From NCBI RefSeq assembly GCF_008033235.1, contig NZ_CP042432.1, forward strand, positions 1,178,001 through 1,242,000: a stretch of DNA of 64,000 nucleotides, in the 5' to 3' direction. Shown piece by piece: positions 3,090 to 58,277 of this stretch. The stretch is from Anseongella ginsenosidimutans (GTDB lineage Bacteria > Bacteroidota > Bacteroidia > Sphingobacteriales > Sphingobacteriaceae). The notes under the pieces were generated by a model. The model was not told the origin of the DNA and ran no database searches. It saw nothing but the letters and a program-made list of their open reading frames with translations. The stretch's first letter is position 1; every line of letters begins with the position of its first letter. Made by a program: the position numbers and the translations under genes.

Positions 3090-5360
3090 ATGAAACGATT
3101 TTTCCTCTTCCTATTAGTGAATTTTTTCAATCTTGCAGTCTTTGCACAAACCCCCCGGCAAATCGGGAACATAACAACTTTTGCCAAGCTATATGGTTAT
3201 GTCAGGTATTTCCATCCCAGTGATGAGGCGGCGGCAACAGATTGGGAAGGCTTTGCCGTTTATGGCGCTGAGCAGGTAGAAAACGCCTCCAATGCCACGG
3301 ATCTTAAAAAAAAGCTCGCAAAATTATTCCTTCCAATCGCTCCTTCGATAAGGATTTACATGGCGGGTGAGGACGTACGTTTCGACAAAGCGGAAATTAC
3401 ACCTCCTGACACGGCCGGATACAAAGCCATAAGCTGGCAACATCTCGGTATAGGGTTCGGTGACGAAAGAAGTATTTATAAAAGCAGTCGCATTAACAGG
3501 TTAACGATATCCAAAAGTAACCGTGCTACATTCGGGAATGCGGGTGAGATGATCGAAGTGAGCAGTTACCAGGGAAAGGAATTTATTCTTAAAGCAAGAG
3601 TCAAGGTTGTTAAGGGGCCGGGAACCGGGCATCTTTGGGCTCGTGTCGATACTGACCAGGGTACGGGCTTCTTTGATAACATGATGGACAGACCCGTGAT
3701 AAATGGTAAAGAGTGGGCTACATACGAAATCAAGGGAAAGATTGATACGAATGCCTCAAAACTGGCCTTTGGCGCTTTCCTGCTGGGAACGGGGAATGTG
3801 CTGGTTGACGATCTAACGCTACTGATAAAAGAAGGAGAAACCTGGGCCACCCACTATTCTAACAAGTATCCTAAAAATGAAGAAAAGAACCTTGAGAAGA
3901 TAAATGAAGCGCAGCCGGGCTATCATTTCAGTATTAATGAAGACGCGGAGGATAGCAATTTCTACCTGTCTATAAGTGACAGCCCTGCTCGTGCCAGAAA
4001 TGGCGATTCCGCAAGGCTGTTTGAACAGCATTGCCAGGTTGGAGAATATATCAGTAAGGAAATTGGATCAGGACTTCAATGCCTTGTCCCGCTGACCCTG
4101 TATGGGACAGAAAAATCGACTTATCCTGTTGCGGATAAGGACGGTTTGGAAAAACTAAGAAATAATTTGTCCTCAATTGTCACTGCTTCCCTGAGCGGGG
4201 ACAGCCTGTATACCCGCCTGGCTGATCTAGTGATCACCTGGAATATCTTCCAGCATTTTTACCCTTATTTCGAGGAAGCGCAAACCGATTGGGAAAATGA
4301 TTTGAGGATCGCGGTTAAAAGCGCCTATACGGACAAGACAGATTACGATTTCCTGAAGACGTTGCAAAAGTTCACCGCAAAGCTAAAAGACGGGCATGTA
4401 AGGGTTTCTTCGCCGGCCAGCATCCGCGAAAGATTCATGCCTCCTGTTGAGTGGGAATGGGTAGAAAACAAGTTGATAATTACCGGAATTCTGCAGGATT
4501 CCCTTCCATTGCAAGCAGGAGATATTGTGACGGCCATCAACGGGAGTTCCCCGGAAGCCTATTTTGAAGAAATTCAGCAATATATTTCCGCTGCCACCAA
4601 GGGATGGCTGGACAGCAGGGCGCAAGTCAGTTCCCTTGCCGGGATCGAAAATTCCACCTTAAACTTAAAAATCACTAAAGCCAACGGATCAATGGAGGAT
4701 GTTGGCCTTTTGCGCAGCCTTTCCGTTAGGGGATACTACGCTGCGCGCTCCGAAGAAACCGTTAGCCGGGAGATCTCGCAAGGGCTTTATTACCTCAATA
4801 TTGACGCGGCTTCTGATGACGATATAAAAGAACTGATGCCGAAGCTAAAAGACGCTGACGGGATTATTTGTGACCTGCGTGGGTACCCCAAAAGCAGCCC
4901 TGAACTAATCGCTCACCTGCTTTCCGAAAAGGACACTTCGTCCATGTGGATGCGGGTTCCCAGGATTATCTATCCCGATCAGGAAAAAATAGCCGGCTAT
5001 AAGCATTTCGGTTGGGAAATGGCTCCCAAGAAGCCCCATTTAGATGCCCGGATCGTTTTTATCACAGATGGAAGCGCCATCAGTTATGCAGAGAGCTACA
5101 TGAGCTTTATTGAACATTATAAACTGGCCACCATTGTGGGGCAGCCAACTGCCGGCACCAACGGGAATATCAATCCCTTCCGGCTTCCTGGCGGTTACCA
5201 TATTTCATGGACCGGGATGAAAGTATTCAAGCACGATGGCTCCCGGCATCACGGGGTGGGAATTATTCCTGACGTGTACGTTGAAAAAACAATCGCGGGC
5301 GTACGCGAAGGCCGGGATGAATTTCTTGAAAAGGCAATAGAAATCGCCAAAGGAAAATGA
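3090..5360 (+). CDS. S41 family peptidase, secreted
   Basis: A 756-residue exported protein. The start at 3090 is preferred to 3045 because it begins directly with a typical signal peptide (MKRFFLFLLV..., ending near an AQ cleavage site at residue 20). About 370 residues without a recognised fold come first, then a second helical segment with the sequence NIFQHFYPYF, a PDZ-like region (LQAGDIVTAING) and the tricorn/C-terminal-processing core. The likely nucleophile is the Ser of DGSAISYAES, near residue 665, followed by the GQPTAGTNGN loop. It probably cleaves peptides in the periplasm or at the cell surface. The gene stands alone between the ABC operon and the epimerase gene, with no clear promoter match. 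Confidence 0.9.
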   Translation: MKRFFLFLLVNFFNLAVFAQTPRQIGNITTFAKLYGYVRYFHPSDEAAATDWEGFAVYGAEQVENASNATDLKKKLAKLFLPIAPSIRIYMAGEDVRFDKAEITPPDTAGYKAISWQHLGIGFGDERSIYKSSRINRLTISKSNRATFGNAGEMIEVSSYQGKEFILKARVKVVKGPGTGHLWARVDTDQGTGFFDNMMDRPVINGKEWATYEIKGKIDTNASKLAFGAFLLGTGNVLVDDLTLLIKEGETWATHYSNKYPKNEEKNLEKINEAQPGYHFSINEDAEDSNFYLSISDSPARARNGDSARLFEQHCQVGEYISKEIGSGLQCLVPLTLYGTEKSTYPVADKDGLEKLRNNLSSIVTASLSGDSLYTRLADLVITWNIFQHFYPYFEEAQTDWENDLRIAVKSAYTDKTDYDFLKTLQKFTAKLKDGHVRVSSPASIRERFMPPVEWEWVENKLIITGILQDSLPLQAGDIVTAINGSSPEAYFEEIQQYISAATKGWLDSRAQVSSLAGIENSTLNLKITKANGSMEDVGLLRSLSVRGYYAARSEETVSREISQGLYYLNIDAASDDDIKELMPKLKDADGIICDLRGYPKSSPELIAHLLSEKDTSSMWMRVPRIIYPDQEKIAGYKHFGWEMAPKKPHLDARIVFITDGSAISYAESYMSFIEHYKLATIVGQPTAGTNGNINPFRLPGGYHISWTGMKVFKHDGSRHHGVGIIPDVYVEKTIAGVREGRDEFLEKAIEIAKGK

Positions 5361-15332: not shown

Positions 15333-15694
15333 TGTGTTGGGTTTTATTGTTTGTTGGGTCCAAAACAAGGGGTCGCGGTCTCCTGAACCGCGGCTCGCTG
15401 ATTTCAAGGGACCGAAAGCTTCGCTTTCCCCTTAAAATCAAAGGCCGCTCCCAGGAGACCGCGACCCCTTGTTTTGAATCTGTTTAATCTTTACCCTCCT
15501 CTCTCTCTTCGCAGTCGGTTTGTTGCCGGAGAGATTGGGGGATTTAAGGTTGAAAGCTTTGCTTTCTCCTTAACGTTAATTTTTTGCCCTCTTCTCTCGC
15601 AATCGGTTTGTTGCCGGGAGAGAGATTTGGGGGATTTTAAGGTTGAAAGCTTCGCTTTCTCCTTAAAGTTGCGGGGGCGCTTCGGGTCCTGGGC
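15333..15694. repeat. Palindromic noncoding element between argC and proC
   Basis: This 362-base spacer has no convincing ORF. A perfect 25-base inverted repeat (15361-15385 and 15452-15476) encloses 66 bases that carry an inner hairpin GAAAGCTTCGCTTTC, itself flanked by pairing GATTT/AAATC ends. Two further 80-base direct copies follow at 15494-15573 and 15587-15666 (period 93), each with the same inner hairpin and an AAGG/CCTT stem. The other genes of the operon are nearly contiguous, so this looks like an inserted REP- or MITE-like element. An RNA role in the operon (stability, attenuation) is also possible. Confidence 0.7.
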
Positions 15695-36524: not shown

Positions 36525-37001
36525 ATGTCAGGCATCAATAAAGTAATTTTAGTAGGCCACTTGGGCAAGGATCCCGAGATCAGGCACATGGAAGGCGGCG
36601 TTTCAAAAGCATCTTTTCCTCTGGCTACCTCTGAATTTTATACCAAAGACGGACAAAGAGTCGAACAAACCGAATGGCATAATATTGTAGTATGGCGCGG
36701 ACTTGCGGACATTGCCGAAAAATATCTTCACAAAGGCAAGCTGGTTTACGTGGAGGGAAAACTCCGCACACGCTCCTGGGACGATAAGGAAGGAAACAAG
36801 CGTTACATGACCGAAGTAGTAGCCGATAACTTTACCATGCTGGGAAGACGCAGCGACCACGAAAACCAGGGCGGCAACGAAAGCTACGGCGGTGGCAACA
36901 CAAACCGCGGAGGCTCCGGTAATTCCCGGGACGCCGCCGGGGGCTCCGAAGGCCTCAATGTAAGGGCCGACGACAATCCCGAGGACGATCTTCCATTCTA
37001 G
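36525..37001 (+). CDS. ssb: Single-stranded DNA-binding protein
   Basis: A 158-residue SSB. The OB-fold occupies about residues 4-108 (VILVGHLGKDPEIR, TEWHNIVVWRGLADIAEKYLHKG, YVEGKLRTRSW). A Gly/Asn-rich linker leads to the acidic tip DDLPF that recruits partner repair proteins. It follows mutY in the same direction, and cotranscription is likely. The downstream region is a palindromic noncoding element, then the convergent aspS. Confidence 0.94.
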   Translation: MSGINKVILVGHLGKDPEIRHMEGGVSKASFPLATSEFYTKDGQRVEQTEWHNIVVWRGLADIAEKYLHKGKLVYVEGKLRTRSWDDKEGNKRYMTEVVADNFTMLGRRSDHENQGGNESYGGGNTNRGGSGNSRDAAGGSEGLNVRADDNPEDDLPF

Positions 37002-37410
37002 TGTGGGGAATACTAAATTAATTTACTCCAAACCATCGGCTTCCGCATCAAGATGGTTTTCCCCGCGTGCATCGCCGGATTTACTTTGCCCGGTCTCGCT
37101 CAGGCTGATTTTCGGGGCCCCGATTGCTTTCGCAATCGCCCGAAAATCAAAAGTTGCTCGCTGCGGGCAAAGCAAACTCCCGCTGGCCGGCGCACATGGT
37201 GAGCGCTCTTGATACCAATATTAATACCAGATACAGGCGGGTGGGGCTAACAGGCTTTTGGCAGGTGCGCAGCGCCTGGGATCCTAAAAATCAGCCTGAG
37301 CGAGACCGGGCATGCCGAAACCACACGGGCGCGCCGGTCAAAGCAAATCCGGCAATGCGCGAGGTCATCACGGCGCCGCGATGCGTGCGGCCATCATGCG
37401 CCGTGACGCG
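37002..37410. repeat. Nested palindromic element between ssb and aspS
   Basis: This 409-base convergent spacer has no credible ORF and several layers of pairing. A perfect 25-base inverted repeat (37088-37112 and 37287-37311) encloses a strong hairpin at 37107-37148 (GATTTTCGGG/CCCGAAAATC, upper stem CGATTGC/GCAATCG). An imperfect outer pair lies at about 37071-37088 and 37339-37355. A separate nine-base stem TCACGGCGC/GCGCCGTGA stands at 37368-37406, next to the aspS stop. The layout resembles the element between argC and proC, with similar GATTTT...AAAATC hairpins. A REP- or MITE-like mobile sequence or a structured RNA is possible. Confidence 0.7.
37368..37406 (-). terminator. Hairpin after aspS
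   Basis: Perfect nine-base arms (TCACGGCGC and GCGCCGTGA) enclose a 21-base loop. They begin five bases after the aspS stop. There is no T-run on the minus strand, so termination is inferred from position only. It may be part of the adjacent palindromic element. Confidence 0.35.
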
Positions 37411-39171
37411 TTATTTAACGTTGATCTGCAGCTCGTCCAGTTGTTCTTTGGAAATGCGCGAGGGAGAATCAATCATTACGTCGCGGCCGGAATTATTTTT
37501 GGGGAAGGCGATCACGTCGCGGATAGAGTCCAGGCCGGAAAAGATCGCGCAAAGGCGGTCGAATCCGAAGGCAATGCCGCCATGAGGGGGAGCGCCGAAC
37601 TCGAAAGCGTCCATCAGGAAGCCGAATTGGGACTGGGCGTCTTCCGGGCTGAAGCCCAGTACGTTGAACATCTTTTGCTGCAGGGTTTTGTCATGGATCC
37701 TGATAGAACCTCCGCCTACTTCATTGCCGTTAATTACCATATCATAGGCATTGGCGCGGACGCGGCCCGGGTCGCTTTCCAGTAAATGGATGTCCCCGGG
37801 TACAGGCGAGGTAAAGGGATGGTGCATGGCGTGCCAGCGGGCGGTTTCTTCGTCCCATTCCAGCAGGGGGAAGTCTACCACCCAAAGCGCCTGGAAAGTA
37901 TCTTTGGGACGCAGCCCCAGGCGGTTGCCCATTTCAAGGCGGAGTTCAGAAAGCGCTTTCCGGGTTTTGGCGGGCTCGCCGGCAAGCACAAGCATCAGAT
38001 CGCCTTCACGCGCCCCGAAAGCCTGCACCCATTTCTGCAGGTCGTTTTCATCGTAAAACTTATCGACAGACGATTTTACCGTGCCGTCATTATTATAACG
38101 GGCGTAGACAAGGCCTGTAGCTCCTATCTGCGGGCGTTTTACCCATTCGGTAAGCTCGTCCAGCTGTTTGCGGGTATAACCGGCAGCGCCTTCCACGCAA
38201 ATACCAGCTACCAGTCCTGCATCATCGAATACCTTGAACCCTTTTCCGCCGGTAAGGTCTGTTTCGCCCAAAGTGCTTTTCAGCTCTGTGAAAGTCATTC
38301 CGAAGCGGGTATCGGGTTTGTCGTTGCCATATTTCCGCATAGCATCGGCATAAGATATATGAGGCAGATGGCCAATGTCGCGGCCTTTTATTTCCCTGAA
38401 AAGATGGTTGATCAGCCCTTCGAACGTTTGAAGTATGTCATCCCGCGTAACGAAGGACATTTCACAATCAATCTGGGTGAATTCTGGCTGCCTGTCGGCC
38501 CGCAGGTCCTCGTCGCGGAAGCATTTTACAATCTGGAAGTAACGGTCCATGCCCGATACCATGAGCAGCTGCTTGAATGTTTGCGGAGATTGGGGCAAGG
38601 CATAGAACTCGCCCGGATTCATCCGGCTCGGCACGACGAAATCCCTGGCTCCTTCCGGGGTAGATTTGATCAGTACCGGCGTTTCCACTTCAATGAAGTC
38701 CTGGCGGTCCAGGTAACGGCGGGTTTCCGCTGCCAGTTTATGCCTGATCTCCAGGTTTTTACGGACAATTCCCCTCCTCAGGTCAAGATAACGGTATTTT
38801 GCCCTAAGGTCTTCGCCGCCGTCGGTTTCGTCTTCAATTATAAAAGGCGGAACCTTTGAAACGTTCAGTACTTCCAGTTCGCTTGCCTTTATTTCAATAT
38901 CGCCCGTAGGCATTTTCGGGTTCTTATTGCTTCGTTCAACAACCGTTCCGCGGGCCTTAATTACAAACTCCCGGCCTAACTCCCTTGCGCGGGAGCAAAG
39001 TTCCGGGTTGTCTTCCATATTAAATACCAGTTGTGTGAGGCCGTAGCGGTCACGAAGGTCAATGAAAGTCATTCCCCCAAGATCGCGGGAACGCTGCACC
39101 CAGCCACAAAGAGTTACATCCGTATTAAGGTTTTCGAGGTTGAGTTCGCCGCAGGTATGGGTACGTAGCAT
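37411..39171 (-). CDS. aspS: Aspartyl-tRNA synthetase
   Basis: A 586-residue class II synthetase. The N-terminal OB-fold ([23 protein letters not shown]) binds the anticodon. Motif 2 is around [18 protein letters not shown], the bacterial GAD insertion domain lies between, and motif 3 is GGIAFGFDR. Length is normal for bacterial discriminating enzymes, and no asparaginyl-type features are seen. The gene is alone on the minus strand, with a good promoter just upstream. Confidence 0.96.
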
Positions 39172-57663: not shown

Positions 57664-58277
57664 GCAAATAGTTTATAGTTTATAGTTTGAAGTTTTTAGT
57701 TCAAGGTTGCGCCGCAACCGTTTCAAGTTCAAGGTTGCTTCGCAACAGTTTAAAGTTTCAAGTTTAACGTTCAAAGTTTAAAGTTGCTTCGCAACAGGTT
57801 CAAGTTTTTAGTTTGAGGTTTATAGTTTATCACGGTGTTTCTGCGGCGACACAACGTTCGCCGTTTCTTCGAAAGAAAGAGGTTGTAGTTTCTAGCTTAA
57901 AGCTGTTCTGTTTCGCAGCCCCAATAAAAAACCTTCGACTAAAAACTAAAAACTAAAAACCGGGAATCGTTACCGAAAGCCCGCAAGTTGAACGTTGAAC
58001 GTTAAACCTTGAACCTTGAACCTTGAACGTTAAACCTTGAACCTTGAACTTTGAACGTTAAACTTTGAACGTTGAACCTTGAACCTTGAACTTTGAACTT
58101 TGAACGTTAAACTTTGAACCTTGAACCTTGAACCTTGAACCTTGAACGTTGAACCTTGAACGTTGAACGTTGAACGTTAAACCTTGAACCTTGAACTTTG
58201 AACTTTGAACTATAAACTTTGAACGTTGAACCTTGAACTTTAAACCTTGAACTTTAAACCTTGAACTATAAAAAAGG
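57664..58277. repeat. Heptamer repeat array with an opposed left half
   Basis: No gene is credible in these 614 bases. From 57990 to 58269 there are 40 tandem units of seven bases of the form (G/A)AAC(C/T/G)TT, with almost all change confined to two positions. The left part (about 57664-57840) carries the complementary form (GTTNNAN units), broken by three small hairpins such as GTTGC-TTC-GCAAC. The two halves could therefore pair into one large hairpin around a central spacer. A few heptamers also stand at 30650-30690. Heptamer arrays of this kind occur in several Bacteroidota genomes; their role is unknown. Confidence 0.85.

Follow-up and report, generated by a model that had tools for sequence, protein, structure and literature searches.

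A family of palindromic units with covarying stems and a conserved internal loop in Anseongella ginsenosidimutans, probably a REP/ERIC-like DNA repeat

In the 64,000-nt stretch of the Anseongella ginsenosidimutans genome analysed here (the window), the spacer between ssb (36525-37001, + strand) and aspS (37411-39171, - strand) contains a nested palindrome that an earlier note had likened to a second one, the arg element. This raised the question of whether the two belong to a family of structured elements, and, if so, what keeps their arms complementary and what spreads them.

Anatomy of the ssb-aspS spacer

The spacer holds one complete repeat unit of about 109 nt at 37074..37182 (+ strand), built from an outer stem, an internal loop, an inner stem and an apical hairpin, which scored 112.2 bits with R1, a covariance model made from 20 copies (alignment A1) with the ssb copy in and the arg element out. 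Although this copy is thus a seed member of R1, the other copies in the genome confirm the extent of the unit. The left and right arms of the outer stem lie at 37078..37092 and 37164..37178 (+ strand; helix 1 of alignment A4). They enclose a conserved internal loop, whose 5' strand, GTCTCGCTCAGGC, occupies 37093..37105 on the + strand and changes little in A1 and A4 while the stems vary, and whose 3' strand, AAAGTTGCTCGCTG (consensus A[AC]ATCGCTCGCTG in the same alignments), occupies 37150..37163, also on the + strand. Between the loop strands, at 37106..37149 (+ strand), come helices 2 and 3, supported by a DNA fold: the inner stem with the arms TGATTTTCGGG (37106-37116) and CCCGAAAATCA (37139-37149), a GCCC bulge, and the apical hairpin CGATTGC-TTTC-GCAATCG (37121-37138). 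An inner hairpin had been described before and is present, although its arms are those just given, under the apical hairpin, and not GATTTT...AAAATC. Folded as DNA, the unit reached -28.4 kcal/mol (z = -4.7), and none of 200 shuffles was equally low.

Downstream of the unit, BLAST and the sequence itself revealed an inverted half unit on the - strand (37259..37312), which comprises the left arm, the 5' loop strand, the inner left arm and the apical hairpin without the right half, and which R1 matched weakly over 37251-37325 (E = 0.0251). A further inverted fragment of the outer left arm appears to lie at 37334..37364 (- strand), as judged from its 84% complementarity to 37063-37093; this is the weaker outer pairing that had been noted earlier. 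The perfect inverted repeat of the spacer, previously given as 25 nt, measures 26 nt, pairing 37087-37112 (TGCCCGGTCTCGCTCAGGCTGATTTT) with 37287-37312, and extends to 35 nt at 89%. For comparison, when the window was examined in pieces of 409 nt, the best perfect self-complementary match in a piece was mostly shorter than 12 and rarely longer than 16 nt, and self-complementarity of 25-26 nt occurred only in the two stretches named in the earlier note. The 26-nt repeat pairs the left arm of the complete unit with the left arm of the half copy, in competition with the outer stem of the unit itself; a fold of the whole spacer stretch favoured the long inter-copy pairing. Because it joins the left arms of a unit and a half unit, the repeat is a feature of the dimer, as in REP dimers. 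Hence this long repeat does not represent the common plan for which it had been taken: it connects two copies, while the conserved feature is the two-sided internal loop. The CGGTCTC motif held to be common to both elements proved partly a coincidence: in the ssb unit it is found at the margin of the internal loop, in the arg unit within the outer stem.

A family with covarying stems and a conserved loop

Used as a query against its own genome, the spacer matched some 20 other places. Lining up the copies gave the plan of the unit: 13-15 pairs form the outer stem, and an asymmetric internal loop and then an inner stem follow. The loop changes little; its 5' strand has the consensus CTCGCTCAGGC and its 3' strand A[AC]ATCGCTCGCTG, also ACATCGCTCGCTG. 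The inner stem takes two forms, a short one (GATTCT...AGAATC) and a long one that bears an additional apical hairpin of the GCTTCGC type. R1 returned 54 matches from the genome (4.32 Mb) at E up to 1; once the weakest matches and the double counting of two palindromic copies, matched on either strand, had been removed, about 50 units at about 38 loci were left. Among them was the arg element, the second family member in the window (15366..15471, + strand), recovered at E = 1.6e-8 by a model built without it. The covariance-model search that the earlier note had proposed, with a lack of further copies as the outcome that would speak against it, thus bore out its suggestion of a structured family that includes the arg element. 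A second covariance model was then built from 52 units (alignment A4); model length is 106-109 positions and complete units span about 85-118 nt. Half units occur elsewhere in the family, and all close pairs (9/9) were in the order + then -, two of them in co-directional gaps and two resting on weak half-unit matches.

The stems of these copies covary. In the seed alignment, generated with MAFFT from the 20 copies without reference to structure, 85.6% of the stem cells paired and two-sided changes were seen in 25/33 pairs; sliding the partners by 1-3 columns lowered pairing to 30-50%. In A4, 92.0% of the stem cells of the 52 units paired, as opposed to 62.0% when shuffled and 33-51% when slid, changes on both sides were found at 33/33 pairs, and the covariation score was 0.620 versus 0.169, figures that lean towards the structure, since A4 was aligned by a model that assumes it, and in which pair counts overstate independent events since the copies are related. 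Double changes per pair climbed with the divergence between copies, from 0.047 to 0.441, while single changes per pair reached a plateau of 0.07-0.15. The earlier view that shape is kept more than sequence is thus supported, all 33 stem pairs covarying. Differences in loop columns stayed at 0.10-0.18 until overall identity fell below 60% and then reached 0.31, so the internal loop is conserved, not invariant. At two loci, L079 and L094, the loops have turned largely or fully complementary, and both copies match the model on both strands; this is the outcome that palindrome correction would give.

The gene context of the units was derived from simple codon-score gene calls. Convergent gaps hold 26 units, co-directional gaps 23 (11 sense and 12 antisense) and divergent gaps 4, and convergent gaps made up 15/37 of the occupied but only 6/63 of the unoccupied gaps (p = 6e-4). 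Units mostly start 12-130 nt beyond a stop codon, gene 3' ends being favoured. The neighbouring genes are diverse and ordinary, as judged from the 25 commonest of 136 Pfam families in 73 flanking proteins and from ten flanking proteins scanned singly, and the GC skew of sampled loci revealed no clear strand bias of the units.

Some units have other repeats near them. Next to the arg unit, at 15501-15670 of the window, stand two tandem copies of another hairpin repeat (GAAAGCTT[TC]GCTTTC), which resembles the inner hairpin of that unit. At L082, a tandem array of GCCTTCGCTTCGCTCGGCAGTTGAGGAGTTGAAT-like units lies between the repeat units 2559-2663 and 3459-3566. AT-rich direct and inverted arrays based on AACTTTGAAC occupy 57748-58245 of the window, and motifs like these are found beside units at L082, L077 and L095.

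Occurrence in relatives

Searching 59 sampled relatives with R1, we obtained matches in only one genome, of the same genus (G001, 4 hits). With the second model, a search of 38 genomes of the family returned 5 hits in G001, spread over two loci, and one weak hit (E = 2.8e-5) in G015, from another genus, where the matched sequence is a short hairpin, TTTTTTCGTTTAATG...CATTAAACGAAAAAA, containing TCGCTC. An exact-pattern search of species genomes yielded 5 stray hits, and the two that were read were coding-like and had no palindrome. Viral contigs contained no copy, a DNA search of plasmid and phage collections gave no match, and neither did a literature text search for the core sequences.

Comparison of filled and empty sites, also proposed in the earlier note, covered three sites, both window ones included, and the congeneric genome G001 has no unit at any of them. 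Its ssb-aspS gap measures 138 nt between the matched stretches, its arg gap about 11 nt versus 355, and its gap corresponding to L064 about 60 nt versus 570. With DNA identity to G001 at 70-80%, exact junctions and target duplication are unreadable, and at any single site loss instead of gain could also explain the difference. Both genomes carry units at the site before tsaE (arrays at L099 4050-4460 and L097 2470-2699), but our genome has a + unit with an inverted half unit there and G001 three - units in tandem, a difference that points to turnover at a site common to both. A tandem array of G001 (L100 3863-4106) departs from the consensus in both loop strands (TTCACTAAAGC / GTCGTTCACG), as though its two copies of TCGCTC changed in concert.

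Nature of the family and its possible spread

We conclude that the family is probably a dispersed, non-autonomous palindromic DNA repeat of the REP/ERIC kind, larger than REPs and untagged. It resembles REPs, REPINs and BIMEs in consisting of multi-copy intergenic palindromes of one lineage, with complementary stem changes and inverted dimers; REPs likewise lie mostly in convergent or co-directional gaps and show complementary stem changes within families (PMC3733652). However, the present unit is about 85-118 nt long, whereas a REP has 20-40 nt; it has two stems parted by a conserved two-sided loop, with an outer stem of up to 15 bp where REP stems have 5-13 bp; the family lacks both the GTAG/CGTC tag and a RAYT in the genome, and its pairs have longer spacers. 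For CGTC REPs, too, no dedicated transposase is known (PMC3733652). In that respect the two are alike, but CGTC REPs have 8-9 bp stems, a 4-5 nt loop and the CGTC tag, features that do not characterise the present units. ERIC sequences are imperfect intergenic palindromes of roughly 127 bp from enterobacteria and relatives, for which a mobiliser is not known, and the likeness in size and in this respect is one of description. By description again, the units recall integron attC sites, which also have a folded single-strand hairpin, an unpaired spacer and a variable stem, but attC sites follow cassette genes in one array while the units follow scattered housekeeping genes. We place the family with the REP/ERIC kind as a variant and do not count it among the REPs.

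As a REP/ERIC-like DNA repeat, the unit would fold out into a hairpin when the DNA is single-stranded or forms a cruciform, and its conserved unpaired loop may serve as the recognition site of a recombination or replication factor. The stems would be free to vary, their pairing being restored either through template switching from one arm to the other or through selection that favours hairpins able to extrude, and copies would pile up at gene 3' ends because they presumably do least harm there.

Strong covariation together with a conserved two-sided internal loop is also typical of RNA motifs, and the position of most units shortly past a stop codon would fit an element of 3' untranslated regions that works as structured RNA in stability, processing or termination and binds a protein through its loop. 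If pairing were kept in RNA of one strand, that strand should tolerate G-T far above A-C mismatches. Over both main stems we counted 30 G-T and 24 A-C (p = 0.50), so wobble is not preferred overall, which favours DNA-level pairing over an RNA function. Taken separately, the outer stem had 17 G-T and 22 A-C, and we read it as kept at the DNA level; matters are less clear for the inner stem, with 13 G-T and 2 A-C (p = 0.007, several cells coming from related copies), an excess that could hint at an RNA function for that part. Further points against an RNA element are the near-equal numbers of sense and antisense units in co-directional gaps and the unit at L096, which comes after an apparent intrinsic terminator. 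Moreover, no Rfam family reached its gathering score in the window, the best Rfam match in the spacer being a snoRNA at chance level (E = 0.19), and the intrinsic-terminator pattern, a GC hairpin with a T tract right behind it, gave only two weak matches in the spacer, on the - strand and inside the unit or half unit, with 0.7 expected in shuffles. On balance, an RNA element seems unlikely.

We regard it as equally doubtful that the units have no mobiliser at all, copies being spread by local duplication and homologous recombination and the arms kept complementary by template switching alone. Template switching between arms is a published source of compensatory changes that needs no selection on RNA (PMC8794818), the two loops converted into near-perfect palindromes are what it might leave behind, and tandem arrays with local duplication exist at L087, L088 and L099. 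Yet the flanks of the roughly 38 dispersed loci are unrelated to each other, so some route of dispersal is needed, and template switching would erase the internal loop as well, which most copies keep.

Any mobiliser that the genome itself encodes lies outside the Pfam family searched for Y1 (RAYT) transposases: Y1_Tnp (PF01797) was absent at E 0.001 from both this genome (G000) and G001. A transposase beside the units was sought among the 25 commonest of the 136 Pfam families of the 73 flanking proteins, and none was found. Reverse transcriptases were rejected as candidates as well, since the loci of the five group II introns and of one retron-like enzyme hold no unit. The introns, near-identical and each with a reverse transcriptase, lie at C1:807100, 1488524, 1989696, 3898706 and 3983983 (L121-L125), two of them adjoining tRNA genes; the single reverse transcriptase at C1:1455492-1456013 (L126) is nearest to the PADLOC model RT_VI and of retron or defence type. 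That the units form a class of mobile DNA hairpins of their own, recognised through the conserved unpaired loop by a non-Y1 mobiliser while the stems drift, we consider rather improbable.

Somewhat less probable still is that the units are REPs spread by a RAYT since lost from the genus. Their REP-like anatomy, inverted pairs and 3'-end location, and the presence of Y1_Tnp in 17/41 family genomes searched, would agree with such a loss. But both genomes of the genus are devoid of Y1_Tnp, no family genome that carries Y1_Tnp and was likewise searched with the model has the element, and the tags were not enriched, GTAG and CGTC being found near the 5' end of 2 and 3 of 53 units against 3.8 and 5.7 expected. 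That the units are decayed genes, the explanation that the earlier note had set against its own, or what is left of a larger insertion sequence is very improbable: half units exist and some pairs enclose a few hundred bases, but these interiors are mutually unrelated, the stems covary rather than decay, and plasmids and phages provided no match.

As an orphan without the usual transposase, the family of REP/ERIC-like repeats raises the question of what spreads it. Its roughly 50 paralogous copies, in which the loop is unpaired and two loops have now become complementary, provide a natural test of selection versus template-switch correction. If palindromes keep their pairing by a process at the DNA level, then covariation alone, which in RNA discovery is commonly taken to show an RNA function, would not prove one.
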